A DNA stretch of 64,000 nt, from assembly GCF_900104525.1 (NCBI RefSeq), contig NZ_LT629711.1, forward strand, positions 2,480,001 through 2,544,000. The letters are read 5' to 3'. The notes beneath the pieces were generated by a model that did not search any database, was not told the origin of the DNA, and was given only the letters and a program-made list of their open reading frames with translations. Positions 1,491-18,176 of the stretch are shown piece by piece (positions within the stretch are counted from its first letter, which is position 1; each line of letters opens with the position of its first letter). Position numbers and translations under genes: made by a program. The DNA comes from Pedococcus dokdonensis. Its GTDB lineage: Bacteria; Actinomycetota; Actinomycetes; Actinomycetales; Dermatophilaceae.

Positions 1491-1566
1491 GCCCTCGTAG
1501 CTCAGGGGATAGAGCACCGCTCTCCTAAAGCGGGTGTCGGCAGTTCGAATCTGCCCGAGGGCACCA
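1491..1566 (+). tRNA. tRNA-Arg (anticodon CCU)
   Basis: The acceptor stem GCCCTCG pairs with CGAGGGC, followed by discriminator A (1563) and an encoded CCA (1564-1566). The anticodon arm CCGCT-CTCCTAA-AGCGG has U33 before CCU, which reads the AGG arginine codon. The T arm is GGCAG-TTCGAAT-CTGCC. The 3' half of this gene is repeated in degraded form at 5951-5999 and its last 17 nt at 18160-18176, so the gene has served as an integration site. Confidence 0.95.
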
Positions 1567-1570
1567 CCAC
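1522..1570 (+). other. attL-type site: 3' half of tRNA-Arg
   Basis: This 49-bp segment (anticodon loop to just past CCA) aligns without gaps to 5951-5999 with 44 identities. It is the intact, tRNA-side copy of the duplicated attachment site that bounds the arsenic island. Confidence 0.7.
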
Positions 1571-1769
1571 AAAATCGCAGGTCAGAGCGTCACAGAGTCC
1601 GCATCGGCTCGGCTCCCTTTCACGAACCCCCGGCTGGGCCCCCGTGAGGCCAAGGCGCCGACGGCGTACGCGACGTACCTCGCCCGGAATGCCCAACGTC
1701 TTGTTCGGCGGACCCAGCCAGACTGCATTGACGTCGTAGATCTCGTCATCGACGGCAAGGCGCATCGGC

Positions 1770-1877
1770 TCAGCCCGTGACGAGGCCAGCCATCCGGGCC
1801 CCCAGGTTGTCGGCCTGCCCTGAGCTAGCCAGACCAAGCACCGCGAGTGCCACGATGACGCCCGAAACGACCTTCAT
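1770..1877 (-). CDS. Possible 35-aa secreted or membrane peptide at the end of the ars operon
   Basis: An ATG ORF too short for normal gene calling. It begins MKVVSGVIVALAVLGLASSG, a basic residue followed by a hydrophobic segment and small residues, as in a signal peptide or a single membrane anchor, and ends shortly after. It lies 48 nt downstream of the 58-aa membrane protein on the same strand. AGAGGGG lies 14 nt before the ATG, rather far for a ribosome-binding site. It could equally be a remnant of a longer gene cut by integration. Confidence 0.25.
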   Translation of the reverse strand: MKVVSGVIVALAVLGLASSGQADNLGARMAGLVTG

Positions 1878-1925
1878 TGACTTCGCGGTCGCCCCTCTGG
1901 GCGCGCACGAAGAGCTGCCTGCGCC

Positions 1926-2102
1926 CTAGATCTGACTGCTGATGACCAGCCAAACATTGGCCGCCCAGGCGATCAAGGCAGCGGGGATCCACTCCCTCTC
2001 CATCGACTGCGATCGGCGGACGCGCTGGAGACCCCGAATGAACCAAGCCACGGCTAGTGCCAGCGCCACCCAGGCGACGAGGTCGGCGATGGTCTGGGCC
2101 AT
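1926..2102 (-). CDS. Small two-helix membrane protein (58 aa) in the ars operon
   Basis: The ATG at 2102 is separated by one base from the stop codon of the preceding arsenate reductase gene (TGACATG), so it is almost certainly translated with it. The 58 residues contain two hydrophobic segments: about 8-21 (LVAWVALALAVAWF) and about 41-57 (AALIAWAANVWLVISSQ). They are joined by a basic loop (RGLQRVRRSQ), a typical helical hairpin with the loop in the cytoplasm. No cysteine or metal motif is visible. I do not recognise the family. Position suggests a role in arsenic handling or membrane assembly of the nearby aquaporin, but that is only inference. Confidence 0.55.
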   Translation of the reverse strand: MAQTIADLVAWVALALAVAWFIRGLQRVRRSQSMEREWIPAALIAWAANVWLVISSQI

Positions 2103-2103
2103 G

Positions 2104-2541
2104 TCACACCTTCAAGGGCACAGGCTCGACCCGGAGCTCCTCGAGGAGGGTCAGGACGCGCTGCTTGATTTCGTCACGGATGGGTCGAACGGAGTCCACG
2201 CCCTGCCCGGCTGGGTCCTCGAGCGTCCAGTCCTCGTAGCGCTTGCCGGGGTAGATGGGGCAGGTGTCACCGCAGCCCATCGTGATGACGACGTCGGAGG
2301 CCTGGACCGCCTCGTTGGTGAGGATCTTGGGCTTCTCCGCGGAGATGTCGATGCCCTCTTCGAGCATGGCCTCCCGAACGGCAGGGTTGATCGAGTCCGC
2401 GGGCGCGGAGCCGGCCGACCGGACCTCGACGGCGCCATCGGAAAGGTGGTGCGTGTATGCCGCGGCCATCTGGGAGCGGCCGGCGTTGTGGACGCAGACA
2501 TACAGGACGGATGGACGGCTGGTTGCCTGGTCGGAGCTCAT
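2104..2541 (-). CDS. arsC: Arsenate reductase ArsC (low-molecular-weight phosphatase type)
   Basis: A 145-residue cytosolic enzyme that reduces arsenate to arsenite. The LMW-PTP P-loop CVHNAGR (C16 to R22) followed by S23 is the CX5R arsenate-binding site. Further cysteines C90 and C94 (GCGDTCPIYPGKRYEDW) sit in the family's redox loop, and the DPAGQ motif follows. In actinobacteria these enzymes draw electrons from mycothiol/mycoredoxin or thioredoxin; which applies is not visible. I chose the ATG at 2541 (MSSDQATSRP), which places the first strand (VLYVCVH) at residue 12. It is the third gene of a minus-strand operon aquaporin, arsC', arsC, small membrane protein. Confidence 0.92.
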   Translation of the reverse strand: MSSDQATSRPSVLYVCVHNAGRSQMAAAYTHHLSDGAVEVRSAGSAPADSINPAVREAMLEEGIDISAEKPKILTNEAVQASDVVITMGCGDTCPIYPGKRYEDWTLEDPAGQGVDSVRPIRDEIKQRVLTLLEELRVEPVPLKV

Positions 2542-2564
2542 GGGGTGGCTTCCTGGTGGTGGGG

Positions 2565-3182
2565 TCAGTTGAGGATGTCGCGGAGCAGTGCAGTGACGCG
2601 AGCTTGGATGTCGTCTCGAATGTCGCGGACGACCTCGATGGGCTGTCCGGCAGGATCGGCAACGTCCCAGTCCTCGTAGCGCTTGCCAGGGAAGATCGGG
2701 CACGCGTCGCCGCACCCCATCGTGATGATGACGTCGGCCGCACCGATGACGTTGTCGGACAAAGGCTTGGGGTAAGCCGTGGTGAGCGCGACGCCTCGCT
2801 CGGCGAGCACGTCGACGACGAGCGGGTTGATGTGATCGGCCGGGGCGGACCCGGCAGAGCGGACGTGTACCCGGTGGGCAGACAGGTGCTCCGCGAGAGC
2901 TGCGGCCATCTGGGACCGTCCGGCCTTCTGCACGCACACAAACAGAAGCTCCGGGACCGCCTTGGCGATACGCCCTTCGGACTGCGCGGCCGCCATCAGC
3001 TGCTCCTTGGCGTGACGAGCCACGAGGATCGGCAGGAAGGCCTTCACCGTGGGGACGGGTTCGAGCAGGTCGCGGGCGTCGGCCACAGCGGCGGCGACGC
3101 TCTCCTTGGAGAAGACACCGTCATAGGAGTACGCCAGGTCAGTGACGATGGCGGCGTACGGATCGGTGGCGTGCACGGTCAT
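2565..3182 (-). CDS. arsC: Arsenate reductase with N-terminal three-helix domain (ArsC)
   Basis: A 205-residue protein in two parts: residues 1-75 form a helical region (ATDPYAAIVTDLAYSYDGVF, then SVAAAVADARDLL) and 78-205 are a full LMW-PTP arsenate reductase. The P-loop is CVQKAGR (C83 to R89) and the redox cysteines are C157 and C161. The helical N-terminal region is known from actinobacterial ArsC proteins such as those of Corynebacterium glutamicum, where the enzyme is mycothiol-dependent. The ATG overlaps the aquaporin stop codon (ATGA at 3182-3179), so the two are translationally coupled. The catalytic half is a clear paralogue of the next gene, giving two reductases in one operon. Confidence 0.9.
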   Translation of the reverse strand: MTVHATDPYAAIVTDLAYSYDGVFSKESVAAAVADARDLLEPVPTVKAFLPILVARHAKEQLMAAAQSEGRIAKAVPELLFVCVQKAGRSQMAAALAEHLSAHRVHVRSAGSAPADHINPLVVDVLAERGVALTTAYPKPLSDNVIGAADVIITMGCGDACPIFPGKRYEDWDVADPAGQPIEVVRDIRDDIQARVTALLRDILN

Positions 3183-3928
3183 GAGGTACTCCTGGACGTG
3201 GAGCTGGCGGGGTGGGGAACGACGACGTCGTCCGCAGAGGCGCTGACGTCGGGGTAGAGGCCGAGCGTCACGCCGACGCCGACAGCGAGGCCGACGAGCT
3301 GGGCGACGATGAACGCGACGGCGGAGCCGGGGGCGATCCCCGCGAACGTGTCGGAGAAGATGCGGCCGACGGTGACGGCGGGGTTGGCGAACGAGGTGGA
3401 GCTGGTGAACCAGTACGCGGCCCCGATGTAGGCGCCGACAGCGGGGCCGGCGATCGCGCCGCGTCCACTGCGGACGAGGGCGAAGATGAGGGCGAGCAGG
3501 AACGTTGTGGCCACGACCTCGGCGAGCAGGTGACCGCCGGTGGCGCGGTGCTTGGTGGAGATGGACATGCCGACGTCGAACATGGCGTTGGCCAGCACGG
3601 AGCCGCCGATCGCACCGAGGACCTGCGCCACCGTGTAGGCGCCGACATCGGGCAGGGTCAGGCCGTGGTCGGTGCGACGGCCGAGGAACCAGTCGGCGAG
3701 CGACACAACCGGGTTGAAGTGGGCCCCGGAGACGGGGCCGAACAGCAGGATCAGGATGGTGAGGCCGAGCACGGTTGCCGTGCTGTTCTCCAGCAGCTGC
3801 AGGCCGACGTCGTTCGGGGAGAGTTGCTGGGCGGCGATCCCGGACCCCACGACGACCGCGACGAGCAGGGCGGTGCCCAGGAACTCGGCGAGGAGGCGGC
3901 GGGGCAGCGGCGGTGCGGAAGTGCTCAC
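3179..3928 (-). CDS. Aquaporin / aquaglyceroporin family channel (arsenite exit route)
   Basis: A 249-residue MIP-family channel with six hydrophobic segments and both half-helix motifs: NPV (72-74, in GAHFNPVVS) and NPA (182-184, in SFANPAVTVGR). The first motif deviates from NPA. Aquaporins in ars operons (AqpS of Sinorhizobium meliloti is the known case) let arsenite made by ArsC leave the cell downhill. Consistently, this island has no ArsB or Acr3 pump. The gene starts with GTG at 3928, diverges from the ArsR-ArsC fusion across 45 bp, and is first in the minus-strand operon. The C-terminal tail (VVVPHPASSTSRSTS) is hydrophilic and unconserved. Function in arsenite exit is inferred from context. 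Confidence 0.9.
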   Translation of the reverse strand: MSTSAPPLPRRLLAEFLGTALLVAVVVGSGIAAQQLSPNDVGLQLLENSTATVLGLTILILLFGPVSGAHFNPVVSLADWFLGRRTDHGLTLPDVGAYTVAQVLGAIGGSVLANAMFDVGMSISTKHRATGGHLLAEVVATTFLLALIFALVRSGRGAIAGPAVGAYIGAAYWFTSSTSFANPAVTVGRIFSDTFAGIAPGSAVAFIVAQLVGLAVGVGVTLGLYPDVSASADDVVVPHPASSTSRSTS

Positions 3929-3937
3929 GAGAACATC

Positions 3938-3973
3938 TTGACGCGGCGTGACGCTTCAGTCAAACTTGAGTCA
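3938..3973. promoter_or_regulatory. Divergent ars promoter/operator
   Basis: The 45-bp gap between the aquaporin and the ArsR-ArsC fusion holds TTGACG (3938-3943, -35-like), an inverted TTGAC (3938-3942)/GTCAA (3959-3963), and the dyad TCAAACTTGA (3960-3969). AGTCAA is repeated at 3958 and 3969. With a -10 near CAAACT (3961-3966), transcription would begin at or next to the ATG at 3974, i.e. a leaderless mRNA. The overlap of operator and start suits ArsR autorepression. Confidence 0.5.
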
Positions 3974-4654
3974 ATGGACATTGAGCGAACTTCCGAGCTG
4001 GAGTCTCGGGCGAAGGCACATGCCGCCCTCGCCGATGTGACGCGCCTGCAGATCCTCGATCTGCTCACCATCGGAGATGCGTCCGCGTCCGAGATCGGTG
4101 CCGCACTCAACGTGGCGTCGAACCTGCTTGCCCACCACCTCAAGGTTCTCGAACAGGCGCACCTGGTGACGCGTCGCCGGTCCGAGGGCGACGGCCGCCG
4201 CTCGTACCTCTCCCTGGGCCCCGCCGCTCATCCGGACATCAGCGGCGGGTCGGTCCTCGGGTCGCCAGCGCGCGTGGTGTTCGTATGCACCGCGAACACG
4301 GCCCGGTCACACCTTGCGGCCGCCCTGTGGCGTCAAGCCAGCGTGATACCGGCCATCTCAGCCGGAACCCACCCGGGAGACCGGATCCACCCCGGCGCAG
4401 TCAAGGTCGCGGACCGTCACGACCTGGCTTTGCCGGACGCGGCACCGCAACTGCTCGACCGAGTGCAGCGCGGCGGGGACCTGATCATCACGGTGTGCGA
4501 CCGCGCCCACGAGGAGCTCGACGGCCTTGGCTGGGCACATTGGTCCGTCCCGGACCCCGTCCCAGCCAGCACCAAGGCGGCATTCGACGACGCGTACGGC
4601 CACCTCGCGTCTCGGGTGGCCGCGCTGGCTCCCAGGCTCGCACCAGCGTCCTGA
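3974..4654 (+). CDS. ArsR-ArsC fusion: HTH repressor fused to LMW-phosphatase arsenate reductase
   Basis: A 226-residue two-domain protein. Residues 8-80 are an ArsR-type winged helix (ALADVTRLQILDLL, recognition helix NVASNLLAHHLKVLEQAHLV, wing RRSEGDGRRSYLSL). Residues 99-222 are an LMW-PTP fold with CX5R at C105-R111 (CTANTAR) followed by S112, and a DPVP motif near residue 194 that corresponds to the family's DP loop. The sensor and an arsenate-reductase-like domain are thus one chain. The usual vicinal cysteines of ArsR are missing from the HTH part, so sensing may involve the phosphatase-like domain. The ATG at 3974 is likely leaderless. It diverges from aquaporin-arsC-arsC and ends at a terminator. 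Confidence 0.88.
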   Translation: MDIERTSELESRAKAHAALADVTRLQILDLLTIGDASASEIGAALNVASNLLAHHLKVLEQAHLVTRRRSEGDGRRSYLSLGPAAHPDISGGSVLGSPARVVFVCTANTARSHLAAALWRQASVIPAISAGTHPGDRIHPGAVKVADRHDLALPDAAPQLLDRVQRGGDLIITVCDRAHEELDGLGWAHWSVPDPVPASTKAAFDDAYGHLASRVAALAPRLAPAS

Positions 4655-4667
4655 CCCCTGTCAGGGC

Positions 4668-4708
4668 GGAGGCCCGAACCAGTACCCCTGGGGTGGTTCG
4701 GGCCTCTC
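4668..4708. terminator. Bidirectional intrinsic terminator
   Basis: GGAGGCCCGAACC (4668-4680) pairs with GGTTCGGGCCTCTCC (4694-4708) with one bulge around a 13-nt loop. It lies between the convergent ends of the ArsR-ArsC fusion and the 75-aa ORF. Confidence 0.75.
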
Positions 4709-4723
4709 CGCATGGATTTTCGC

Positions 4724-4951
4724 TCAGGCGGGGCAGCACACCGGCTGAGGTGCACAGCCAGCCACCGCAGCGGGTGCGGGCTTGGCCAGCAGGCGGACCT
4801 TGTCGGCGATCTGGGTCACGGACGCCTGCCACTGGGTGAGCCGCTGCTTCGATACTCCGCGCGCCTGCCTGACCAGCCGGTGCTGCTCGGCCTCCCGGAG
4901 CAGGTCCTCACGGTGTGCGTCGGCCATCAAGCCGGATACGAGGGGGTGCAT
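4724..4951 (-). CDS. Small cysteine-tailed protein of the arsI operon (75 aa)
   Basis: Starts with ATG at 4951 behind GAGGAG at 8 nt and begins 12 nt after the arsI stop codon, so it is cotranscribed with arsI. The body is a charged helical stretch (ADAHREDLLREAEQHRLVRQ) and the C-terminus ends GCAPQPVCCPA, with three cysteines in eight residues that could bind a soft metal or metalloid such as As(III). No known family is recognised. A metallochaperone-like role is a guess from the cysteine tail and the neighbourhood. Confidence 0.65.
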   Translation of the reverse strand: MHPLVSGLMADAHREDLLREAEQHRLVRQARGVSKQRLTQWQASVTQIADKVRLLAKPAPAAVAGCAPQPVCCPA

Positions 4952-4963
4952 GGTGGTCTCCTC

Positions 4964-5467
4964 TCAGCAGCACGCCGCGGCGGTCTGCTTCTCCTTCACG
5001 TCGGCGGGGATGTCAGTTGCAGTGGCGTCGGTCGCGCAGCACGTGCCGTCGCCGGACAGCTCAGACAGGTCGAGGCTGGTCTTGCCCTCCAGGTCGGCAC
5101 GGGCGTCGCCCTTGACCGTGTAGACCTCCCACGGCTCGCTGCCGGGTCCGGTCACCCAGACCTTGTCCTGGACGGCGTAGCAACAGGTGGTGTTGTCCTC
5201 GATCCGGGTCGCGAGTCCGGCGTCGGCGAGCCGGTTCGTCGCGGAGGCGACCAGGTCGGTGGACTCGACCTCGACACCGAGGTGGTCCATCCGGGTGTCT
5301 TCGCCGGGCTGGCCTTCGAGCAGCACCAGCTTGAGCGGCGGCTCGGCGATGGCGAAGTTGGCGTATCCGGGGCGGCGCTTGGCGGGGGCGGTGTTGAACA
5401 GGCGGGAGTAGAACTCGATCGAGCCTTCGAGGTCGGCGACGCGAAGAGCGAGCTGTACGCGGGACAC
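4964..5467 (-). CDS. arsI: ArsI-type C-As lyase / CadI family glyoxalase-fold protein
   Basis: A 167-residue vicinal-oxygen-chelate protein. ArsI cleaves the carbon-arsenic bond of trivalent organoarsenicals (e.g. methylarsenite) with Fe(II) and O2. The signature vicinal cysteines C95-C96 (DNTTCCYAVQDKVWVTGP) bind the arsenical. Q5, H62 (MDHLGVEVE) and E113 (PWEVY) are the probable metal ligands. The C-terminal tail carries two further CC pairs (GTCCATD and a final ACC). I chose GTG at 5467 because GGAG lies 6 nt upstream and the family starts SRVQLAL; a TTG at 5479 would add four residues. It diverges from arsR over two operator-like dyads. Confidence 0.9.
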   Translation of the reverse strand: MSRVQLALRVADLEGSIEFYSRLFNTAPAKRRPGYANFAIAEPPLKLVLLEGQPGEDTRMDHLGVEVESTDLVASATNRLADAGLATRIEDNTTCCYAVQDKVWVTGPGSEPWEVYTVKGDARADLEGKTSLDLSELSGDGTCCATDATATDIPADVKEKQTAAACC

Positions 5468-5482
5468 GAGGTTCTCCAATGG

Positions 5483-5554
5483 ATAGATGGATGTCTATGT
5501 GTCGCCACCTTGCCACTCAACATCGGTCCGTGTCAATATAGATGCGTGTCTAAT
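5483..5554. promoter_or_regulatory. Paired ArsR-type operators between arsI and arsR
   Basis: ATAGA-tggatg-TCTAT (5483-5498) is a perfect dyad and ATAGA-tgcgtg-TCTAA (5538-5553) a near copy, 55 bp apart. One lies beside each divergent gene. This resembles ArsR/SmtB operators (inverted repeats rich in TA). TTGCCA (5510-5515) and CAATAT (5534-5539), spaced 18 bp, could be the arsR promoter, which would start transcription at the GTG at 5546. Confidence 0.55.
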
Positions 5555-5929
5555 TACGTGATGGAGATGCCGCTGATTCCGCCCGACAGCGCGCTGGCCT
5601 GCTGCGCCCCGCTCGCCCGCGAGCCAATGACGACCGATCAGGCCGAACAGGTCTCCGGACTGCTCAAGGCCATCGCCGACCCGGTGCGGCTGCGCCTGAT
5701 GTCGATGATCCTGTCCCACCAGGGCGGCGAGGCCTGCGTCTGCGACCTCAACGACGCGTTCGACCTGTCCCAGCCGACGATCAGCCACCACCTCAAAGTG
5801 CTGCACCAGGCGGGGTTGCTCGACCGCGAGAAGCGCGGCACCTGGGTCTACTACAAAGCCAAGCCCGAGGCCTTGGCGGCAATGACAAGCCTGTTCGACG
5901 TTGTCAGCGGAGGACCTACAGGCAAGTGA
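5546..5929 (+). CDS. arsR: ArsR family As(III)-responsive repressor
   Basis: A 127-residue winged-helix repressor. The N-terminus has a CC pair (C19-C20, LACCAPL) and the helix before the HTH has CVC (C64, C66 in GGEACVCDLN). Together they make a plausible As(III) site, as described for actinobacterial ArsR such as Corynebacterium CgArsR. The recognition helix is DLSQPTISHHLKVLHQAGLL and the wing REKRGTWVYYK. I took the GTG at 5546 (leader VSNYVMEMPL fits relatives and the promoter geometry gives a leaderless mRNA); GTG 5558, ATG 5561 and ATG 5567 are alternatives. There is no Shine-Dalgarno for any of them. It is the last gene before the island's right end. Confidence 0.88.
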   Translation: MSNYVMEMPLIPPDSALACCAPLAREPMTTDQAEQVSGLLKAIADPVRLRLMSMILSHQGGEACVCDLNDAFDLSQPTISHHLKVLHQAGLLDREKRGTWVYYKAKPEALAAMTSLFDVVSGGPTGK

Positions 5930-5950
5930 CTCCGCGCGGTTCGTGACGGA

Positions 5951-5999
5951 CTCCTCAAGCGGGTGTCGGCAGGACGAACCTGCCCGAGGGCATCACCAC
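5951..5999 (+). other. attR-type site: degenerate copy of the tRNA-Arg 3' half
   Basis: 49 bp align to tRNA-Arg positions 1522-1570 with 44 identities and no gaps. The T arm is altered (GGCAG-GACGAAC-CTGCC) and the rest of the tRNA is absent, so it is not a functional tRNA. It marks the right end of the arsenic island and the left end of the next segment. Confidence 0.75.
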
Positions 6000-6020
6000 G
6001 TTGCGGAGGGTTCTTCCGCT

Positions 6021-6047
6021 GCATAATGTTAGTCACTAACATTATGC
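6021..6047. promoter_or_regulatory. Perfect 27-bp palindromic TetR operator
   Basis: GCATAATGTTAGT (6021-6033), centre C (6034), ACTAACATTATGC (6035-6047): 13 of 13 pairs match. It overlaps the first ATG (6044) of the downstream tetR. TAACAT (6037-6042) could be its -10 box. This is the expected site of autorepression. Confidence 0.8.
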
Positions 6048-6049
6048 CC

Positions 6050-6616
6050 ATGGGCAAGTCCGAGCAGACCCGTGACCGCCTCCAAGAGGTTGCCCTGGAC
6101 CTCATCGCATCCCAGGGTTTCGACTCGACGACGGTCGAGCAGATCGCACGTGCCGCTGGAGTCAGCCAGATGACCTTCTTCCGGCACTTTGCGACGAAGG
6201 ACGCGGTCGTGCTCAGCGATCCCTTCGACCCGCGGATCGCGGCCGCCGTCGCTGCGCAGCCGCCCGCCACTCCCCCGCTTGCCCGAGCATGTCGCGGGCT
6301 CCGCGAGTCGATCAACGAGCTGACTGGCTCTGACGAGCACCAGGCACGCCAGCGCGTGAGGATCGTCGCCGAGACGCCCAGCCTCGCAGCCGGGGTGTGG
6401 GCGAACACCACTGCCACGCAACAGGTGTTGTCGATGGTCCTAGCCGAGCACGCCCCGGAGCCGGATGCCCGCGTGGCCGCCGCCGCCACCATGGGCGCAC
6501 TCGTGGCCGCCCTCCTGGACTGGGGCTCTCGGGACGACGACGAGACCCTCCGGGTCCCACTCCTTCGCGCCCTCCAAGTCCTCGACCCGCCATCCGACGA
6601 TGGGGGGCGTCAATGA
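6050..6616 (+). CDS. TetR family regulator of an ABC exporter
   Basis: A 188-residue repressor. The N-terminal HTH is canonical: TRDRLQEVALDLIASQGFDS, then TTVEQIARAAGVSQMTFFRHF with FATKDAVV. The C-terminal domain (residues 60-185) is the variable ligand-binding part. ATG 6050 and ATG 6044 are both possible; neither has a ribosome-binding site. The palindrome across them and a TAACAT box suggest a leaderless start at 6050. Its stop overlaps the ATPase start (ATGA), so it is the first gene of a three-gene operon and probably controls the exporter in response to a drug-like ligand. Confidence 0.87.
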   Translation: MGKSEQTRDRLQEVALDLIASQGFDSTTVEQIARAAGVSQMTFFRHFATKDAVVLSDPFDPRIAAAVAAQPPATPPLARACRGLRESINELTGSDEHQARQRVRIVAETPSLAAGVWANTTATQQVLSMVLAEHAPEPDARVAAAATMGALVAALLDWGSRDDDETLRVPLLRALQVLDPPSDDGGRQ

Positions 6617-7344
6617 CCGGCCCTGCTCCTGCCCTCCAGTGCCGCAGCCTCGTCAAGCGATACGGCGACCTGATCGCGTTGGACCACCTCGACCTGGTCG
6701 TCCCAGCTGCCGAGGTACACGCGCTGGTCGGCTTCAACGGCGCCGGCAAGTCCACCCTGATGCGAGTCATTCTGGGTATGACCCACGCCGACACCGGCGA
6801 GGTGACCATCCTCGGCAGCGACCTCGTCCGCGGCGAGGCGGACTGGTCACGGGTTGGGCACCTCGTCGATTCGCCCTTCGGCTACCCGGAGCTCACGGTC
6901 ATCGAGAACCTGTATGCCGCCGCGCGGCTGCACGGCCTTTCTCACCGGCCCGCGCAGCAGGCAACCGGCAGGGCCATCCAACGCCTGGCCCTCGAACCGT
7001 GGGCCAGGCGCACCGCTGGCACGCTCTCCCAAGGCAACCGTCAGCGCCTGGGCCTGGCCGCCAGCGTCCTGCACCGTCCAGCACTCCTCGTGCTCGACGA
7101 GCCCACCAACGCGCTGGACCCATCGGGGGTCGTCCTGCTCCGCGACCTGGTTGCCGAGCTCTCCGCCGACGGGACGGCTGTGCTCGTCTCCAGCCACCAC
7201 CTCGACGAGGTCGCCCGGGTCGCCAACCGTGTCAGCGTCGTCCACACCGGTCGCGTCATCGGTGAGCTCGACCCGACAACGCCGGACCTCGAGCGAACCT
7301 TCTTCGCCATGGTCCACGAGGCCGACACCGAGGACGTGGCGTGA
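6613..7344 (+). CDS. ABC transporter ATP-binding protein (exporter)
   Basis: A 243-residue nucleotide-binding subunit. Walker A GFNGAGKST (about 40-48), Q-loop region VGHLVDSPFGYPELT, signature LSQGNRQRLGLA, Walker B LLVLDEPTNALDP and the H-loop SSHHLDEV are all intact. The Q-loop histidine/aspartate form and the short C-terminus match DrrA/CcmA-like exporters of antibiotics or lantibiotics. The ATG overlaps the tetR stop and the stop overlaps the permease GTG, so the three are translationally coupled. Substrate unknown. Confidence 0.9.
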   Translation: MTGPAPALQCRSLVKRYGDLIALDHLDLVVPAAEVHALVGFNGAGKSTLMRVILGMTHADTGEVTILGSDLVRGEADWSRVGHLVDSPFGYPELTVIENLYAAARLHGLSHRPAQQATGRAIQRLALEPWARRTAGTLSQGNRQRLGLAASVLHRPALLVLDEPTNALDPSGVVLLRDLVAELSADGTAVLVSSHHLDEVARVANRVSVVHTGRVIGELDPTTPDLERTFFAMVHEADTEDVA

Positions 7345-8111
7345 CGCGCGCGGCATACCGGGTCGAGCTGCTCAAGCTCCGCCGCTCACGTGTCCCTGCC
7401 GTCGCGGCCGTGGTCGTGCTCCTCGCACCCCCATTGCTCGCCTGGGCCTTCATGACGGCGGGAACGAGGGGCCAGGGGGACCCGTTGAGCGCGAAGGTCA
7501 ACGCTTTGTCGTTCGGCGAAGGTTGGTCCGGATACCTCAACGGCCTCACCCAGATCGCCGCCACGGGCGGCTTCGTGGGGATCGGGATCGTGGCGACGTG
7601 GTGCTTCGGGCGGGAGTTCGCAGACCGCCAGGTCGTGTCGCTCTACGCCTCGGCCACCTCGCGCCGCGACGTGGCCGGGGCCAAGCTCATGATCCTCATC
7701 GGCTGGTCCCTCGTCGTGGCGATCATGAGCGCTCCCGCCGCCCTCGGGATCGGTCTCCTCGCTGGGCTCGGCAACCCGGACGCCTCCACCTGGGTCAGTC
7801 TGCTGCGGCTGGTGGCCCTCCACACCCTGACCGGTTCGCTGGCCCTGACCGCAGGCCTGTTCGCGAGCGCGGGCCGCGGCTACCTTGCCGGGTTCGCGGG
7901 GCTCATCGGGCTCGTCGTGACCCCCCAGCTCGCCATCGCTGTCGGGGCCGGGAGCTGGTTCCCCTGGTCGGCACCGGGACTCTGGGCGATCGCACCGCTC
8001 AATCCCGGCTTTCCGCTCGTGCCCGGTTGGCACCTGCTCCTCGTCCCCCTGGCCGCTCTCGTCACTGCCGGACTCACGGTTGCGTGGTGGGAGACCGCTG
8101 AGCTGCGCTGA
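7341..8111 (+). CDS. ABC-2 type permease of the TetR-controlled exporter
   Basis: A 256-residue membrane protein with about six hydrophobic segments (for example residues 13-35, 74-92, 114-137, 150-170, 173-195, 228-247). It starts RVELLKLRRSRVP, the basic amphipathic start usual in ABC-2 permeases, and has the RRDVAGAKL loop between the second and third segments. The start is GTG at 7341 inside the ATPase stop (GTGA). It pairs with the preceding ATPase. There is no gene between its end and the convergent lipoprotein gene (54 bp). Confidence 0.85.
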   Translation: MTRAAYRVELLKLRRSRVPAVAAVVVLLAPPLLAWAFMTAGTRGQGDPLSAKVNALSFGEGWSGYLNGLTQIAATGGFVGIGIVATWCFGREFADRQVVSLYASATSRRDVAGAKLMILIGWSLVVAIMSAPAALGIGLLAGLGNPDASTWVSLLRLVALHTLTGSLALTAGLFASAGRGYLAGFAGLIGLVVTPQLAIAVGAGSWFPWSAPGLWAIAPLNPGFPLVPGWHLLLVPLAALVTAGLTVAWWETAELR

Positions 8112-8165
8112 CCCGACCAGCAGCGCTCCGACCCGACCGCCGCGACCCGACTGCTGGGCCGGGCG

Positions 8166-10180: not shown

Positions 10181-10182
10181 GG

Positions 10183-11850: not shown

Positions 11851-12023
11851 TGAACGCCTTCTCTTCGGCCCTGGCTGATGAGCTCGCCCTTGCTCGTGAG
11901 CGGCTGCGCAGCGCCCGGGCACGACGTGATGACGAAGGAGTCATGGATGCCAGGGAGAGGCTGCTGGACCTCACCGAGATCTCTAAGCGCGTCCGAGAAG
12001 GTCTCCTGATCCCGTCTCCGTGA
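11850..12023 (+). CDS. Small coiled-coil protein (57 aa) in the partner-switch cassette
   Basis: A 57-residue ORF too short for normal calling, with ATG at 11850 and TGA at 12021-12023 overlapping the GTG of the next gene (GTGA). The sequence is one long charged helix (ADELALARERLRSARARRDD and DARERLLDLTEISKRVREGL). Tight overlap at both ends argues strongly that it is translated. It could be an adaptor between the STAS and HATPase partners. No known family. Confidence 0.6.
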   Translation: MNAFSSALADELALARERLRSARARRDDEGVMDARERLLDLTEISKRVREGLLIPSP

Positions 12024-12397
12024 CCGACGTCGAGCACTGGCTGCTCGCACCGGATCTCACGGCGCCTCGCCATGCCCGGCGAGTGTTGCGTGAGTGGGCC
12101 GCGCGACGCGGCACAGCGATCAGCGACCCCCACACCGTGGCGCTGGTGGCGACAGAGCTGGTGACCAACGCCGTGCTGCATGCTCGAGGACCAGTCGGGC
12201 TGAGCATCTCCATCGACAACCAGAACATCACGCTGCGAGTCACCGACGCCGGAAATGGACACCTGCGACCCAGCCCCGGGGACGACGGTGCACCGACTGG
12301 TCGGGGGCTGACCATCGTCCGGGCCCTCGCGGTGGACTGGGGCGTCCACCGCCGGCCCGGCGGCAAGACCGTCTGGGCGCGGGTGCCCCTCGGCTGA
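12020..12397 (+). CDS. Anti-sigma-factor-like serine kinase (RsbW/HATPase_c_2 type)
   Basis: 125 residues. N box VALVATELVTNAVLHARGPV, G1 box VTDAGNGHLRP and G2 box GRGLTIVRALAVDWGV are the diagnostic blocks of single-domain GHKL kinases such as RsbW and SpoIIAB. Such enzymes phosphorylate a STAS partner and bind a sigma factor. The GTG start overlaps the preceding small ORF. Together with the STAS protein 600 bp upstream it makes a complete kinase/antagonist pair. A cognate sigma factor is not in the window. Confidence 0.85.
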   Translation: MTDVEHWLLAPDLTAPRHARRVLREWAARRGTAISDPHTVALVATELVTNAVLHARGPVGLSISIDNQNITLRVTDAGNGHLRPSPGDDGAPTGRGLTIVRALAVDWGVHRRPGGKTVWARVPLG

Positions 12398-12538
12398 CGG
12401 CTCGCCCGAGCGTCATGAAATCGCAAAGATACTGCCGTGATCACTGTCATCTCGGCGTCCCAGAGTGGTTGTCGAGGGCGGAATCCGACGTTGTGTTCCG
12501 CCCTCACCACACTCAATCGAACAGGTAGGAGAGCGAAA

Positions 12539-12790
12539 ATGACCAACGGTACGGTGGTCAAGATCCAGCCGGGACAACGTGTCGGGGACAGGACCTCACA
12601 CCGGATCGTCGCTGCACAGCTTCGCGGCGAGGCGAGGGCGCCGGACACCGACACCCGATCCGTGGTCCGGGCGGTGGCCAAGGAGATCGAGGACCTGGGG
12701 CTGGTGCCCGACGTGCCCGAGCTGGAGCGTAGGTACGGGCAGCCCTCGATCGTCGCACCAGCCCTCGCGGCGATGCGCGCCTCCGCCTAG
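12539..12790 (+). CDS. Hypothetical protein (83 aa)
   Basis: The ATG has a good ribosome-binding site (AGGTAGGAG, 5 nt away). The product is hydrophilic, starts MTNGTVVKIQPGQRVGD, has a helical middle (SVVRAVAKEIEDLGLVPDV) and no cysteine, signal or membrane segment. A GCAAAGATAC element at 12423, about 115 nt upstream, resembles GCAAAGATCT before the STAS gene, so both may be controlled alike. I do not recognise a family. Confidence 0.55.
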   Translation: MTNGTVVKIQPGQRVGDRTSHRIVAAQLRGEARAPDTDTRSVVRAVAKEIEDLGLVPDVPELERRYGQPSIVAPALAAMRASA

Positions 12791-12836
12791 CCAGTCGGTT
12801 CTCGTGCATACAGGCGGAGCGTGCGTCGGACACCGC

Positions 12837-13625
12837 TCACCGGAGGTCGAGTCGGCGGAACGCCCACACCGCGACTGAGCTGAGCAGGACACCTGCGATG
12901 ACGAGCGCGGCGAAGGACCCGGGCGCCAGTCCCTTCACGATCTGGTCCTGCCCCACCGACCAGTAGATGGGCGAGAGGTGGCGTAGGTCGTGCAACCAGT
13001 CAACGACCCCGGCGAGCGAGCTCATCAGGTACGACGCAGCGGCAAGCGCCGACGCGACACCGAGGGAGAGGCCGCGGCTCCCGGTCAAGCAGCCCAACGC
13101 GAGCGCCAGGACACCGAAGTCGTAGGCCAGGAGGACAACCCCGGCCGAAGCGCTCGTCAGCGGCGCGACCGCCAACCGGAGTCCAACCGTCCGCCCCGCG
13201 AGCACTGCCACGTACGTCACCCCTGCGACGGGGATCGAGACCACGGCCAGCGCGGCCTGTTTCTGGAGCATCAAGGATGTCCGTGAGACCGGGAGGGCTG
13301 CGATCAGGCCGAGATGCTCCTCCTCGTTCTGTCCGGCGACCGCGGCAGCTCCGTAACCGATCGACAGCAGCAGGGCGAACAACGGCACCACGTTGGCATA
13401 GAGGTTTGCGTTGAGCCAGCCGGCTGGGGAGGTCAGGGACCCCGACAGCCCGAAGAGGGCGGCCATCGTCGGGTTGCCCTCCGCCAGCCGGTCCAGTGAA
13501 CGGTCCCCGCGGAAGGACGGGTACAGGAGAACGATGAGCACGGCATACGCACCGAAGCCGAGGGCACAGGCCCACAGGCTGCGTCGGCGCAGCCGCAGGT
13601 CCAACCGCATCAACTCAGCTCGCAA
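12837..13625 (-). CDS. ABC-2 type exporter permease
   Basis: 262 residues with about six membrane segments (for example 17-36, 76-98, 118-140, 149-178, 183-205, 236-256). The start is basic (ELMRLDLRLRRRSLW), typical for ABC-2 permeases. I chose TTG at 13625 behind GAGGGAC; it overlaps the ATPase stop by 11 nt. An ATG at 13610 is the alternative. It forms an operon with the ATPase and a MarR regulator, all on the minus strand. Substrate unknown. Confidence 0.85.
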   Translation of the reverse strand: MRAELMRLDLRLRRRSLWACALGFGAYAVLIVLLYPSFRGDRSLDRLAEGNPTMAALFGLSGSLTSPAGWLNANLYANVVPLFALLLSIGYGAAAVAGQNEEEHLGLIAALPVSRTSLMLQKQAALAVVSIPVAGVTYVAVLAGRTVGLRLAVAPLTSASAGVVLLAYDFGVLALALGCLTGSRGLSLGVASALAAASYLMSSLAGVVDWLHDLRHLSPIYWSVGQDQIVKGLAPGSFAALVIAGVLLSSVAVWAFRRLDLR

Positions 13626-14559
13626 GGGGTCCCTCGTCCACGTCCGTCCCTCGATAGAAGGCCCGGAAGATCTCGTCCAGACCGGCCGGGCGCGCGACGA
13701 GGTCGGTGGCGCCCATGTCGCCGATGGCCCGCAGGAGCGGGGCCATTGAACCGTTGACCTCGAGGCTCACCCCGTCGCCCCGCCGGTCAATGACCCGAAC
13801 GCCGGGAATGGCCGCGAGCACTGCCTGCGCCGGCACGTGGTCGAGGTGGAGCTGCACGACCCGCGGGGCGCGTTCGCGAAGACCGCTCACGGTGTCGACG
13901 GCGACAAGTCGTCCCTCACGGATGATGGCTACCCGGTCGACGACGCGCTCCACCTCATCGAGGTCGTGCGAGGACAGGAACACCGTCGCGCCGTCGGCGA
14001 CCCGCTCGCGGATGAGCCGGGCGAACTCGTCCTGCAGCAGCGGGTCCAGCCCGGAGGTCGGCTCGTCGAGGACGAGCAGCTCGGGACGGTGCATGAACGC
14101 CAGGACGAGTCCGATCTTCTGCCGGTTGCCCTTGGACAGTGCTCGCAGGGGTCGGTCGAGCTCGGCACCGAGGCGCGCGGCGAGGCTGTCGATGTCGACG
14201 GCGGACACGCCTCCGTGGATGTGCGCCAGGCGGTCCAGCAGGTCACGGCCGGACAGGGCTGGAAACAGCCGTAGCTCACCGGGGAGGTAGCCGATCCGCC
14301 TCCGCACCGCCACCTCGCGAGGGCTGCCGCCCAACACCTGCACGGAGCCTGCGTTCGGACGCGACAGCCCCATGACCAGCCGGATGGTCGTGGACTTCCC
14401 CGCACCGTTCGGGCCGAGGAAGCCGAGCACCTCGCCTCGGGCCACCTCGAGGGTGAGGGACTCCACGCCCCGGTTGCGGCCGTAGCGCTTGGTCAGCCCG
14501 CCGAGGCGTACGGCTGGCCCTTGGCCCGCATCCGACCCCCGGCTCACGGCTCTCACCAC
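13615..14559 (-). CDS. ABC exporter ATP-binding protein
   Basis: 314 residues. Walker A GPNGAGKST, Q-loop region IGYLPGELRLFPALSG, signature LSKGNRQKIGLV, Walker B LLVLDEPTSGLDP and H-loop SSHDLDEVERV are intact. The C-terminal extension of about 90 residues is of the DUF4162 type seen in antibiotic/lipid exporters. Several GTG codons lie at the start (14559, 14556, 14547), overlapping the marR stop. It is encoded between marR and the permease, so it is probably regulated by that MarR protein. Confidence 0.9.
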   Translation of the reverse strand: MVRAVSRGSDAGQGPAVRLGGLTKRYGRNRGVESLTLEVARGEVLGFLGPNGAGKSTTIRLVMGLSRPNAGSVQVLGGSPREVAVRRRIGYLPGELRLFPALSGRDLLDRLAHIHGGVSAVDIDSLAARLGAELDRPLRALSKGNRQKIGLVLAFMHRPELLVLDEPTSGLDPLLQDEFARLIRERVADGATVFLSSHDLDEVERVVDRVAIIREGRLVAVDTVSGLRERAPRVVQLHLDHVPAQAVLAAIPGVRVIDRRGDGVSLEVNGSMAPLLRAIGDMGATDLVARPAGLDEIFRAFYRGTDVDEGPLAS

Positions 14560-15038
14560 CCCAGCGCGTTGGCCGCATCCAGAGCGGCAGTCGGTTCATC
14601 AGCGGCCTCGGCGAAGGTGCTCAGTGCTTCGACCAGTCGACGTGCCTGCTCACGAGGCATGGCCTCGACGATCACGCGGATGGCCTCGCGGCGACGTTCG
14701 GTGACGTGGTCGACCACGCGGCGGCCCCGGGGTGTCAACTCGATCACCACTTCGCGGCGGTCCTGGGTGTTCTCACGCCGCGTGACCAGGTCCGAGGCGA
14801 TCAGCCGGTCGACACTGCGCAACGCCGTCGAAGGGGTCACCCCCAGACGGTCCGCCAGACGATTCAGCCGGGTCTCACCATGGCCGCGCAGCACGACCAG
14901 CAGCCTGAACTGGGTCACCGTGACGTCGTCCTGCACCTCCGCCAGCGACCGCGCCGAAACCCCCACAAGCACCCGCGAGGCCGTCAACAGGGCCGTGACG
15001 AGATCGTCGAGATCAGATCGGTCCAGCGGCTGCGGCAT
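14553..15038 (-). CDS. MarR family regulator
   Basis: 161 residues with the MarR winged helix: TVTQFRLLVVLRGHGETRLN, then RLADRLGVTPSTALRSVDRL and wing TRRENTQDRREVVIELTPRG. The ATG at 15038 has an excellent ribosome-binding site (AAGGAGG, 6 nt). The divergent gap to the CLC gene contains a perfect palindrome with further GCA half-sites, its likely operator. It is the first gene of the exporter operon and probably also affects the CLC gene. Confidence 0.9.
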   Translation of the reverse strand: MPQPLDRSDLDDLVTALLTASRVLVGVSARSLAEVQDDVTVTQFRLLVVLRGHGETRLNRLADRLGVTPSTALRSVDRLIASDLVTRRENTQDRREVVIELTPRGRRVVDHVTERRREAIRVIVEAMPREQARRLVEALSTFAEAADEPTAALDAANALGW

Positions 15039-15081
15039 GGAAGCCTCCTTGCCCGTCGTCGATTGCATTGCTTGCACTAAT

Positions 15082-15098
15082 AATTGCATAATGCAATT
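15082..15098. promoter_or_regulatory. Palindromic MarR operator
   Basis: AATTGCAT (15082-15089), A, ATGCAATT (15091-15098): 8/8 match. Extra ATTGCA/TGCACT half-sites lie at 15062-15077. CATAAT (15087-15092) is placed to serve as -10 box for a leaderless CLC transcript starting at the ATG at 15100, so the repressor would cover the promoter. Confidence 0.65.
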
Positions 15099-15099
15099 C

Positions 15100-16866
15100 A
15101 TGACGCCAGAGGAAGCCCCTGTCCCCTCTCGTTCCCGGCGATTGGTCGGGCTGTCCGTCGGCCGTGCCGGTATCTGGCTCCGCAGCTCCAGCACGGGGTT
15201 GTTGGTGTTGTCCCTCACCGTTGGCGCCGCGGCCGCGCTCTTCGCGGTGGCATTCCGCTGGCTCATCGGCGCCTTCACCCGCCTCTTCTCCGGACACCTC
15301 GACTACGCCGCCAGCCCCGGCGCGGCGCACCCGTCCCTGCCCGGACTCGGGCGGTGGTTCGTGCTCGCCACTCCGGTGGTTGCGGGGCTCCTCTACGGTC
15401 CGCTGGTCCAGAGATTCGCCCGCGAGGCGCGCGGGCATGGGGTCCCCGAGGTCATGTATGCCGTCGCCCATCGTGGCGGACGGATCGCCCCCCAGGTGGC
15501 AGCGGTCAAGGCTCTCGCCTCGGCGTTGTGCATCGGCGGTGGGGGTTCCGTCGGGCGCGAGGGTCCGATCGTCCAGATCGGGTCCGCCCTGGGTTCGACC
15601 GCCGGACGCCTGGGCCGGCTGTCCGAACCGCGCCTTCGCGTCTTGGTCGCGTGTGGCGCGGCGGCCGGGATCAGCGCCACCTTCAACGCCCCCCTGGCGG
15701 GTGTCTTCTTCGCGATGGAGCTGATCCTCGCGGACTTCACCTCGCAGGCCTTCGGCATGGTGGTGCTCGCCTCGGTGACCTCCAGCGTCATCGGGCGCGC
15801 CGCCCTCGGCGACGTGCCCTTTCTCGAGCTCCCGGCCTTCACCGTGACAGGCCCCCACGAGTACCTCTTCTTCGCCGCCCTCGGCTTGCTGGCCGGGCTG
15901 GTGGGCGTGACCTTCACTCGGGTCCTGTACGCCGTCGAGGACGGATGCGACGCCCTGTGGCGTGGACCGGAGTGGTTGCGGCCAGCCGTGGGCGGGCTCG
16001 CTCTCGGGCTGGTCCTGCTCGTCCTCCCGCAGATGTACGGCGTCGGTTACCCGGTGCTCGGTGACGCCATCGATGGGAGGTATGCCGTGGCGTTCCTCTT
16101 GATTCTCATGGTGGGCAAGATGGTGGCCACCAGCCTGACGATCGGGATCGGGGGTTCCGGTGGCGTCTTCGCCCCCAGCCTGTTCATCGGCGCCATGCTC
16201 GGTGCGGCGTTCGGAGAAACGCTCCACCTCATTGCCCCGGGAGTCTCTGGACCTGTGGGTGCTTATGGGCTGATCGGGATGGGCGCAGTGTTCGCCGGAG
16301 CCGCCCGCGCCCCCATCACGGCCGTCGTCATGCTCTTCGAGCTCACGGGCGAGTACACCGTCATCTTGCCGCTGATGACTGCCATCGTGCTGGCGACGGG
16401 TCTGAGCCACGCCCTCACCGGCGACACGATCTACACGCTCAAGCTGCGACGTCGCGGGGTGGACCTCGGCGTCCCGAGCGAGACGGTGCAGGGCAGCCGG
16501 CGGCACGTCCGCGACGTCATGAGCGAGGTGCCGTCGGGCCTCCCCCGGCGCACCACGCTTGCCGAGGTCGCTGCCGCGCTGAGTGAAGCCCAGTTCGGGA
16601 TCCTGCCGGTGGTCGACGACTCCGGCGACTACCTCGGCGTCGTGACGGCACGGGGCGTCACGGATGCCCTCGCGGACGGACGGCACGACACCGCGGCGGC
16701 CAGCCTGGCTGCGGAAGTCCCGGTGACCATCAATGAGAGTGACCCTGTCACAGTCGCCAGCGAGACGCTGAGCCGCAGCGGGATGAGTGCCATGCCTGTC
16801 CTCAGCTCTTCTGGAGACGTCGTGGGCTGGCTCAGCTACCACGACCTCCTCGCGGCCCGGCCCTGA
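15100..16866 (+). CDS. CLC family chloride channel / proton antiporter with two CBS domains
   Basis: 588 residues. The membrane part (about 25-450) has the CLC signature blocks: GSVGREGPIVQIG (150-162) with the gating glutamate E154, then GISATFNAPLAGVFFAMEL and GSGGVFAPSLFIGAMLGAAF. The gating glutamate is present, which fits either a Cl-/H+ exchanger or a channel. Two CBS domains follow (about 468-588: DVMSEVPSGLP, EAQFGILPVVDDSGDYLGVV, MSAMPVLSSSGDVVGWLSYH), which bind adenine nucleotides in relatives. The ATG at 15100 has no Shine-Dalgarno and is probably leaderless. It is divergent from marR over a palindrome. A role in pH or anion homeostasis is the usual one. Confidence 0.92.
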   Translation: MTPEEAPVPSRSRRLVGLSVGRAGIWLRSSSTGLLVLSLTVGAAAALFAVAFRWLIGAFTRLFSGHLDYAASPGAAHPSLPGLGRWFVLATPVVAGLLYGPLVQRFAREARGHGVPEVMYAVAHRGGRIAPQVAAVKALASALCIGGGGSVGREGPIVQIGSALGSTAGRLGRLSEPRLRVLVACGAAAGISATFNAPLAGVFFAMELILADFTSQAFGMVVLASVTSSVIGRAALGDVPFLELPAFTVTGPHEYLFFAALGLLAGLVGVTFTRVLYAVEDGCDALWRGPEWLRPAVGGLALGLVLLVLPQMYGVGYPVLGDAIDGRYAVAFLLILMVGKMVATSLTIGIGGSGGVFAPSLFIGAMLGAAFGETLHLIAPGVSGPVGAYGLIGMGAVFAGAARAPITAVVMLFELTGEYTVILPLMTAIVLATGLSHALTGDTIYTLKLRRRGVDLGVPSETVQGSRRHVRDVMSEVPSGLPRRTTLAEVAAALSEAQFGILPVVDDSGDYLGVVTARGVTDALADGRHDTAAASLAAEVPVTINESDPVTVASETLSRSGMSAMPVLSSSGDVVGWLSYHDLLAARP

Positions 16867-16971
16867 ACCGTCTTGTGGTCATTGGCTGCGCGAGCCTTCG
16901 TCTGCGGGTCCACCATGAGGGAACTGGTGTCCTCAACGCTGCCGAGCACTACCCACCCGCTGGGCGAGCGC

Positions 16972-17778
16972 TCACAGGCGTCTCCGCGGCTCTCCTTCCG
17001 GCAGTTCCCCGGGCCCCGATGATGCTGCGCTCCCGTCAACATCGGGGCTCGCCATGGCGCCCGGCACTCCCTCGCGCGGCAGCAGAGGCATGACGCGGGC
17101 GTACGTGTCCCGGGTGGCGCCCTCGTAGCGGACATAGAGGTCAACGGCGCGTACACACGCCAGAGCCTTTCGAGTCAGGGCCAGCACCTCGACACGATCG
17201 TCCTTGCCGGTGCCGATCCCCGCCCCTGCCCCCAGACGACGAAGGGCAAAGTCCTCGTCCTCGACCAACCCCATGAAACCGAGTTGCGCGCGCGCATCGT
17301 CCACCGGCACCCACGACTGGGTCTCGATCTCCTTGCCTGCCGGAACCACTCGGTACTGAACGGCCTGCACGATGGCTCGTCCCCCGCCGCTGTTGTCAAT
17401 CATCACGCGCCAAGCCGACTTCTGGCCCAAGATGACGCTGGCGTCGCGGGTCGAGGACCACCCCAGGTGCGGCTCCACGGTCAGCGTCAGCTGTCGACGT
17501 GTGGCGATGAGGGCGAGGAGTCCACCAGCAAGTGCGGCTGCGGGGGCAACCTCGAGCAGCTGAAGTCGCCACGGCCAACGTCCCGTCCATGACGCCGGCA
17601 GGTTCTCACGCAGTATCGCCCATGTGAGCACCACAAGCAGTGACACCAGCAGTCGCACTGGCCACACGTCCAACGCGCTGGGACGGTAGACGAGCACGGG
17701 TCTCCCGGGCGCGGGCTTCACCGCTCCCGTGGCGAGATCGCGGCGCCTGCTCTGTCGGCCGCTGAAGGGACGCCTCAC
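16972..17778 (-). CDS. Hypothetical membrane-anchored protein (268 aa)
   Basis: Two hydrophobic segments near the N-terminus (about 42-58, VRLLVSLLVVLTWAIL, and about 72-90, LEVAPAAALAGGLLALI) are followed by a cytosolic or extracellular beta-rich domain (LTLTVEPHLGWSS, WRVMIDNSGGGRAIVQAVQY, VDLYVRYEGATRDTYARVM). This layout resembles phage/island-encoded hypothetical proteins with a membrane anchor and a C-terminal domain. I took GTG 17778; GTG 17721 with GGGAG just upstream is an alternative. It overlaps the cupin-like ORF out of frame. Family not recognised. It lies near the right end of the tRNA-bounded segment. Confidence 0.6.
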   Translation of the reverse strand: MRRPFSGRQSRRRDLATGAVKPAPGRPVLVYRPSALDVWPVRLLVSLLVVLTWAILRENLPASWTGRWPWRLQLLEVAPAAALAGGLLALIATRRQLTLTVEPHLGWSSTRDASVILGQKSAWRVMIDNSGGGRAIVQAVQYRVVPAGKEIETQSWVPVDDARAQLGFMGLVEDEDFALRRLGAGAGIGTGKDDRVEVLALTRKALACVRAVDLYVRYEGATRDTYARVMPLLPREGVPGAMASPDVDGSAASSGPGELPEGEPRRRL

Positions 17779-18016
17779 GACTAATCAGGCGGCCGCGGCT
17801 TGGGCCGGGCGTGGCGGCATTCAAAACGACACCCGAAGAACGAGCAATGACGCTGTGATGCTGGCCCGCTGGAATGATTACCTGCTGACCCCGAACAAGC
17901 TTCACGACCCCGGAGTCAGTTTCGAGGTCCGCCTCGCCAGCGACCAGAAGTGTGGAACTCTCGTCGTCGTGTCGGTGCGCGAACGACTCTCCTTCTTCCA
18001 AACTGATGTGAGCCAC
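17606..18016 (-). CDS. Cupin-domain ORF, probably truncated or decayed
   Basis: Residues 1-70 are good cupin sequence: AHISLEEGESFAHRHDDESS (HxH metal motif), LLVAGEADLETDSG, then VRGQQVIIPAGQHHSVIARS (PxG...H). The following 65 residues are low-complexity and overlap the neighbouring gene in another frame, so the natural end was probably near position 17800. In-frame codons upstream of the GTG (reading PIWDHPEVAHISL) also look cupin-like but run into a stop at about 18082, with no start. The fragment sits beside the 17-bp tRNA-tail repeat, so it may have been cut by integration. Confidence 0.4.
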   Translation of the reverse strand: MAHISLEEGESFAHRHDDESSTLLVAGEADLETDSGVVKLVRGQQVIIPAGQHHSVIARSSGVVLNAATPGPSRGRLISREASLQRPTEQAPRSRHGSGEARARETRARLPSQRVGRVASATAGVTACGAHMGDTA

Positions 18017-18159
18017 TTCTGGATGGTCCCAAATTGGCAGCCCGGCGTCGAGGGTCGGAAGCGGACCGAAGACTCGAGATCATCGAACTGCGAACCACCG
18101 ACCAAGCGCCAAGCCTCGGACGAACGAGCGTGTCGGTGAGTCCCACCCAACGAACATGG

Positions 18160-18176
18160 CTGCCCGAGGGCACCAC
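18160..18176 (+). other. Third tRNA-Arg 3'-end fragment (possible att remnant)
   Basis: CTGCCCGAGGGCACCAC is identical to tRNA-Arg positions 1551-1567 (17/17). TGTCGG and CGAA upstream (18131, 18151) echo the rest of the T arm with insertions. It coincides with the end of the accessory block. Confidence 0.5.

Follow-up and report, generated by a model that had tools for sequence, protein, structure and literature searches.

The tRNA-Arg(CCU) locus of the soil actinobacterium Pedococcus dokdonensis raises the question of how the tail of a single tRNA gene came to lie behind that gene in two further copies, with arsenic genes before the first of these copies and regulators, exporters and orphan genes before the second. 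The locus lies in a stretch of 64,000 nucleotides, referred to here as the window (G000:C1:2480001-2544000), of the source genome G000, a single contig of 3.94 Mb. This study indicates that the locus is likely a layered set of relics, devoid of an integrase and flanked by attachment (att) sites, of elements that targeted tRNA-Arg(CCU), a gene used by pSAM2-like and other elements. The underlying process is a known one, and the locus is ordinary in kind rather than new.

The tRNA gene was found to be the sole CCU gene among the matches scanned. The original prediction held that its 49-bp tail (1522-1570) recurs at 5951-5999 with 44 of 49 identities and that the last 17 bp recur exactly at 18160-18176, and both repeats were recovered. 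The first, copy 2, aligned to the tail without gaps at 44/49 and was retrieved by a whole-genome BLAST search with the tRNA at an E-value of 2e-12 (query positions 32-80); it is beyond doubt a genuine copy. Its five substitutions all fall at positions unpaired in the tRNA (37, 54, 55, 60 and 74), an arrangement with a chance of 0.04 when calculated post hoc. The second, copy 3, matched tRNA bases 61-77 exactly and on the same strand. These fragments are not a frequent genomic repeat, as the same search returned 19 matches at E-values up to 10 in the 3.94 Mb, in which copy 2 was the only long match besides two other tRNA-Arg genes. The short matches other than copy 3 comprised an exact 17-mer (at 2699243), a 16-mer, three 15-mers and further matches that are short or inexact.

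Tyrosine integrases recombine the copy of the tRNA 3' half carried by an element with the gene itself, which remains whole, while the old 3' half is pushed to the far end of the insert. From this mechanism we infer that repeated integration would produce the order tRNA, insert, tail, insert, tail, the insert next to the gene being the youngest. Copy 2 would then mark the far end of the arsenic segment (segment 1) and copy 3 that of an older segment (segment 2). As the tRNA stays whole at every integration and the earlier 3' half is displaced outward, copy 2 would have been functional when segment 1 arrived, and the changes in its T-loop would have occurred later. The disappearance of integrase and transfer genes would have left non-autonomous, att-flanked segments resembling cis-mobilisable elements (CIMEs).

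Copy 3 is short but probably a real relic of the tRNA tail. With the tail of each genome as its own query and exact matches counted, no match of at least 14 bp was found in minus-strand sequence downstream of the tRNA (about 396 kb from ten relatives and the window) or on either strand upstream of it (about 271 kb from five genomes); this control sequence contained four exact matches of 13 bp. On the plus strand downstream, the exact matches of at least 15 bp were the detached tails together with copies 2 and 3. It might be argued that copy 3 is a chance GC-rich 17-mer, such that only the ars genes and copy 2 form a relic and the rest is resident DNA, as copy 3 retains just 17 of 49 bp, the gene next to it has no match in other genomes, and a second exact 17-mer of the tRNA end exists at G000:C1:2699243-2699259 with no tRNA within 1.5 kb. 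We consider this improbable, because an order-5 Markov model predicts only about 2.5e-4 such tail 17-mers in the 12.2 kb interval, the control sequence is free of matches of 14 bp or more, and copy 3 includes the exact 3' end of the tRNA, with a weak gapped match running on upstream of it. An integrase (2682084-2683154) is located about 16 kb from the distant 17-mer.

The same tRNA gene was examined in 58 genomes: our own, ten from the same genus, 25 further family members and 22 from other families. With the tRNA of the window as query, detached tails on the same strand, at most 36 kb downstream and on the contig of the tRNA, were found in at least 9 of the 36 family genomes (G000, G001, G003, G004, G005, G007, G025, G034 and G035) and, among the matches listed, in none of the 22 from other families. 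In nine same-genus relatives 37 kb downstream of the tRNA were read, and in G006 1.1 kb, where the contig ends; an ungapped scan at a threshold of 33/49 revealed tails in five of the ten, with two in G007 and the weakest, at 33/49, in G004. Five of these six tails start at tRNA position 32, where the anticodon loop begins, and that of G005 at position 38. The edge at position 32 is thus shared by copy 2, G001, G003, G004, G007 and G025, with G035 at 31 and G034 at 43.

Integrases were found as well. A tyrosine integrase convergent with the tRNA and at most 1 kb behind it is present in G007 and G004 (both intact, 91% identical), is broken in G001 and is reduced to a piece in G005, while no integrase was detected at the locus in G002, G003, G006, G008, G010 or the window. 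More distant integrases (30-46% identity) lie behind the tRNA in G023 and G035, and 1.6 kb away in G017. The proposal of integration at tRNA-Arg(CCU) is thereby strengthened: the gene is supported as a genuine hotspot of integration in the genus, as G007 and G176 (a genome of another genus) have tandem tails and integrases belonging to one family stand behind the gene. G009 is another stacked site: about 130 bases past its tRNA lies a gapped, decayed tail, after which the end motif described below is weakly matched, and integrase pieces occur 17.4 kb downstream.

The tandem tails of G007 also bear on the graded decay of the copies, which had been taken to suggest accretion. This gradation is compatible with accretion but is not a clock, as the nearer tail of G007 is the more diverged of the two (40/49 versus 48/49). 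The nearer tail carries a fully compensated T-stem (GCCGG/CCGGC) and apparently derives from a different tRNA allele, which suggests that allele exchange contributes in addition to decay. It lies at 18140 of the oriented locus, and the farther, near-identical tail lies at 23057.

A complete pSAM2-like element occupies tRNA-Arg(CCU) in G176. Its integrase, directly behind the tRNA, is 78% identical to that of G007 and is followed by a small HTH_17 protein at the position of an excisionase, and by RepSA (Pfam, E 2.8e-153), FtsK/SpoIIIE, GntR and NUDIX proteins, a gene set that we take to be that of pSAM2-like actinomycete integrative and conjugative elements (AICEs). Detached tails lie 13.7 kb away and, for the second, at 24.3 kb. 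Like pSAM2-type AICEs, which combine a tRNA attachment gene with a convergent tyrosine integrase, the window has a repeat that corresponds to the 3' part of the tRNA, namely copy 2, and it has kept the end motif of the integrase side. It differs in lacking int, xis, rep and tra genes as well as the family-specific arm before copies 2 and 3. None of eight proteins of the G176 element matched positions 1-30000 of the window (tblastn, E 0.1); these include the integrase and the excisionase, the Tra protein, and RepSA, the one type of replication initiator that this search covered.

The end motif suggests a link between the window and this family. A sequence (..YCGCAGGTCAGAG) sits between tRNA and integrase in G001, G004, G007 and G176 and ahead of the integrase piece in G005; in the window it directly follows the tail (1571-1587, ..TCGCAGGTCAGAG). 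Exact motifs joined to a tRNA end were found in 8 of 186 family genomes (G000, G001, G002, G004, G005, G007, G010 and G176), always at tRNA-Arg(CCU). Allowing one mismatch gave 18 places in 15 genomes, these eight included, of which one is tRNA-Arg(CCU) of G095 and nine others were not tied to this gene; a reversed control pattern gave one match. By profile hidden Markov model (HMM) the score of the motif in the window is weak (E 0.71). The far sides of the detached tails in G001 and G005 lack the motif, and most of it is present after the first tail of G176, as would be expected if a second element had lain there before. The motif at 1571-1587 is therefore most readily interpreted as a sequence brought in by an element, a scar left by a pSAM2-like one, and its presence suggests that the last occupant of the tRNA belonged to the G176-type family. 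This occupant, of a family still present in relatives, would later have been deleted. The motif was also considered as a plain native tRNA trailer, a reading that is disfavoured: it is missing beyond the tails of G001 and G005 and behind the tRNA in G003, G006, G008 and G009.

That no integrase is left, as originally predicted, holds at the protein level, although the short end motif persists. There was no Phage_integrase (PF00589) match at the locus at E 0.01. A small HMM of the integrase family, run on 600-base pieces in six frames, gave no outstanding match and, among the best 15 listed, none at 1571-2104, where tblastn with the G007 integrase returned at best, among the matches listed, E 1.4 (1849-1640). 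The suggested search for an integrase pseudogene thus turned out negative by tblastn and HMM and weakly positive by DNA alignment against G001 only: positions 1588-1651 scored 40 against the end of the G001 gene, ranking first of 119 windows, which was not the case with G007, G004 or G005, nor by HMM. This is a weak suggestion of a possible pseudogene trace.

The ends of the relatives' elements differ from those of the window segments. The 80 bases before seven tails (G001, G003, G004, G005, both of G007 and the first of G176) are conserved, and each of these arms outscored 400 of 400 random windows. This arm is present at 7 of 11 relatives' tails scored and missing at G009, G025, G035 and the second G176 tail, so more than one kind of element uses tRNA-Arg(CCU). 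Depending on edge and reference set, the arm score of copy 2 was matched by 48-69% of random windows and that of copy 3 by 8-35%. An HMM built from the seven arms, which recovers these by construction, found nothing in the window better than E 7.2. With its arm profile within background, copy 2 was dropped as a candidate product of the relatives' AICE family. The segments ending in copies 2 and 3 would have been left by elements of another kind, or their arms would have been lost.

CIMEs are att-flanked segments without a recombination module of their own that can stand in tandem on one attachment gene, and CIMEs and site-specific accretion are reportedly known from the ICESt1 family of Streptococcus thermophilus. 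The window segments are similar: the tRNA tail and copy 2 surround 1571-5950, with just 17 bp remaining at copy 3, and no integration or conjugation module was detected in the Phage_integrase, integrase HMM and G176 protein searches. Unlike in CIMEs, no mobilising element of matching kind was found at the window locus, and the att copies are degraded. Elements on the same tRNA exist in relatives, yet their arm has no match at copies 2 and 3. The features of the locus are listed in Table 1.

Table 1. Features of the tRNA-Arg(CCU) locus in the window.
Feature	Position	Strand	Basis
tRNA-Arg(CCU), attachment gene	1491-1566	+	ARAGORN, whole-genome BLAST
tRNA tail, att core (tRNA positions 32-80)	1522-1570	+	Alignment, relatives' tails
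Integrase-side end motif (..TCGCAGGTCAGAG)	1571-1587	+	Pattern and HMM comparison with relatives
Possible decayed 3' end of integrase gene, like G001 int end (weak)	1588-1651	-	DNA local alignment
LMWP-family protein, arsenate reductase-like (ArsC1)	2104-2541	-	Pfam PF01451
LMWP-family arsenate reductase with N-terminal domain (ArsC2)	2565-3182	-	Pfam PF01451, PF21234
MIP/aquaporin-family channel	3179-3928	-	Pfam PF00230
ArsR-LMWP fusion	3974-4654	+	Pfam PF01022 and PF01451
CadI/ArsI-like glyoxalase-fold protein	4964-5467	-	Pfam PF00903
ArsR regulator, ends 21 bases before copy 2	5561-5929	+	Pfam PF01022
Copy 2 of tRNA tail, relic att site	5951-5999	+	44/49, BLAST and ungapped alignment
TetR regulator, ABC ATPase, ABC permease	6050-8111	+	Pfam
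Block that changes place within the genus: GerMN lipoprotein, histidine kinase, response regulator, STAS, HATPase, ABC exporter, MarR, CLC channel	8166-16866	.	Pfam, relatives
Open reading frame without Pfam match	16972-17700	-	Pfam search
Open reading frame without Pfam match	17855-18139	+	Pfam search
Copy 3, 17 bp of tail exact, probable older relic att site	18160-18176	+	BLAST, alignment
Gene right of copy 3, no Pfam match	18221-19438	-	Relatives' search
PhoX, first shared stretch right of segments	19600-21273	+	G005, 84% DNA identity

With regard to segment 1, the predicted arsenic genes were corroborated by Pfam, which identified LMWP/ArsC-like, ArsR and MIP proteins and a CadI/ArsI-like glyoxalase-fold protein. 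Parts of this segment match 107 of the 186 family genomes, our own included (E 1e-80 or better), and homology with four relatives stops at 5897-5910, just ahead of copy 2. A second copy of 2123-4915, with 84% identity, occurs in the same genome at about 3362447-3365235. The right end of this second cassette (G000:C1:3362428-3366123) runs into an N-terminally truncated tyrosine recombinase. ArsC, aquaporin, ArsR-LMWP and CadI-ArsR parts also occur elsewhere on chromosomes of the family; in contrast to those cassettes, that of the window is packed between a tRNA and a relic att site. The ars genes may have travelled as cargo. A foreign origin on the basis of composition was considered and set aside, the differences in G+C being too small to use.

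In segment 2, regulators, exporters and orphan genes lie between copies 2 and 3, much as first described, with two open reading frames lacking any Pfam match. Homologues of its largest block were found in G001 and G010, 31-50 kb upstream of tRNA-Arg and beyond tRNA-Ala(CGC), in a different internal order and without the TetR-ABC and HATPase genes. tRNA-Ala(CGC) is a second integration site. In G010 an integrase adjoins this gene (G010:C1:112587-112661), and a 44/44 copy of its tail lies about 31.2 kb upstream of tRNA-Arg, with the block just past this tail; no such tail was found in the stretches read in G001 or, altogether, in four other genomes scanned. Given this position in G001 and G010, the block changes place within the genus. 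The position at -31 to -50 kb would also suit an explanation in which segment 2 is old chromosome of the genus and the GerMN-histidine kinase-response regulator-CLC block, ancestrally located near here, was moved by inversion or transposition. This seems unlikely, as the block lies beyond another tRNA in both genomes, no DNA match to 6000-19600 was found in 7 of the 10 same-genus relatives (E 1e-60; G006 has a partial match), and the block pieces share 69-76% identity with G001 and G010, where 28 of 34 core pieces exceed 74%.

The borders of the variable region were defined by synteny. To the left of the tRNA, synteny with G001, G005, G008 and G010 breaks off 0.2-0.5 kb ahead of the window start; for G008 it resumes and continues up to 1284. 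To the right, position 18176 is not supported as the edge: the gene that comes next (18221-19438) has no match in 57 other genomes, shared DNA begins at 19600, further shared genes are a DivIVA-like gene at 24012 and a GH31 gene at 28110 (G008), and continuous synteny starts at 28.1-33.8 kb, varying by relative. Owing to the orphan gene and the first shared stretch, the accessory DNA may extend to about 19.6 kb or beyond. Between tRNA and core lie 8.2 kb in G010 and approximately 18-28 kb in G001, G002, G004, G005 and G008. At the locus of the ten same-genus relatives there was no DNA match of at least 150 bases to 2104-19438, and protein matches were paralogues only, at 27-44% identity (ArsR was compared by DNA only). 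ARAGORN also called a tRNA-Arg(ACG) at 29641-29720, inside the GH31 frame 28110-30260 (Pfam match), which is most likely a false positive.

Because the variable stretch runs well past 18176, a further explanation was considered, namely that only copy 2 is a true att relic, that the stretch from tRNA-Arg to the core at 28-34 kb was reshuffled mostly by homologous and illegitimate recombination, and that 5999 and 18176 are not element borders. The displaced and rearranged segment 2 block, the abundance of ars segment parts in the family and the absence of the arm at copies 2 and 3 would all fit. Nevertheless, both copies are correctly oriented, copy 2 begins at the tRNA base at which tails elsewhere begin, the control sequence holds no comparable exact matches, and other tails at tRNA-Arg(CCU) also lack the arm, which leaves general reshuffling as a rather doubtful account, if a slightly better one than a chance copy 3 or an old-chromosome segment 2.

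Several observations count against layered relics of tRNA-targeting elements. No exact empty site was found among the ten same-genus relatives (1.1 kb being readable in G006), and no relative read joins the tRNA directly to 18177 onwards, an arrangement that would have marked an empty site; G008 has neither tail nor integrase at the tRNA, but a different gene follows. No integrase protein remnant was detectable at the window locus, the conserved arm was not found before copies 2 and 3, and the end motif was not found after either copy. Within the genus, the link between motif and integrase reaches only p 0.07 (integrase at the tRNA in 4 of 6 relatives with the motif versus 0 of 4 without). G002, G010 and G095 carry the motif with neither integrase nor tail in the sequence read, and in some lineages the motif may be a tRNA trailer of native origin. 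Finally, the G+C content of the segments (66-69%) is only slightly below that of the core (71%).

Notwithstanding these points, we favor layered relics of elements targeting tRNA-Arg(CCU). As a more speculative extension, to which we attach little confidence, tRNA-Arg(CCU) might act as a recording site, in which repeated landings rewrite the 3' half with their own allele, deletions leave end-motif scars, and stray blocks such as ars cassettes become fixed between att sites, where the integrase of a later arrival could move them. In this actinobacterial genus, which has been little studied, and in its relatives, the tRNA site displays many stages in the life of such elements side by side: a complete element in G176, a broken integrase in G001 and G005, tails unaccompanied by an integrase in G003 and the window, and the motif only in G002 and G010. 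This naturally occurring series could be used to study the decay of integrated elements and the retention of cargo such as arsenic genes.

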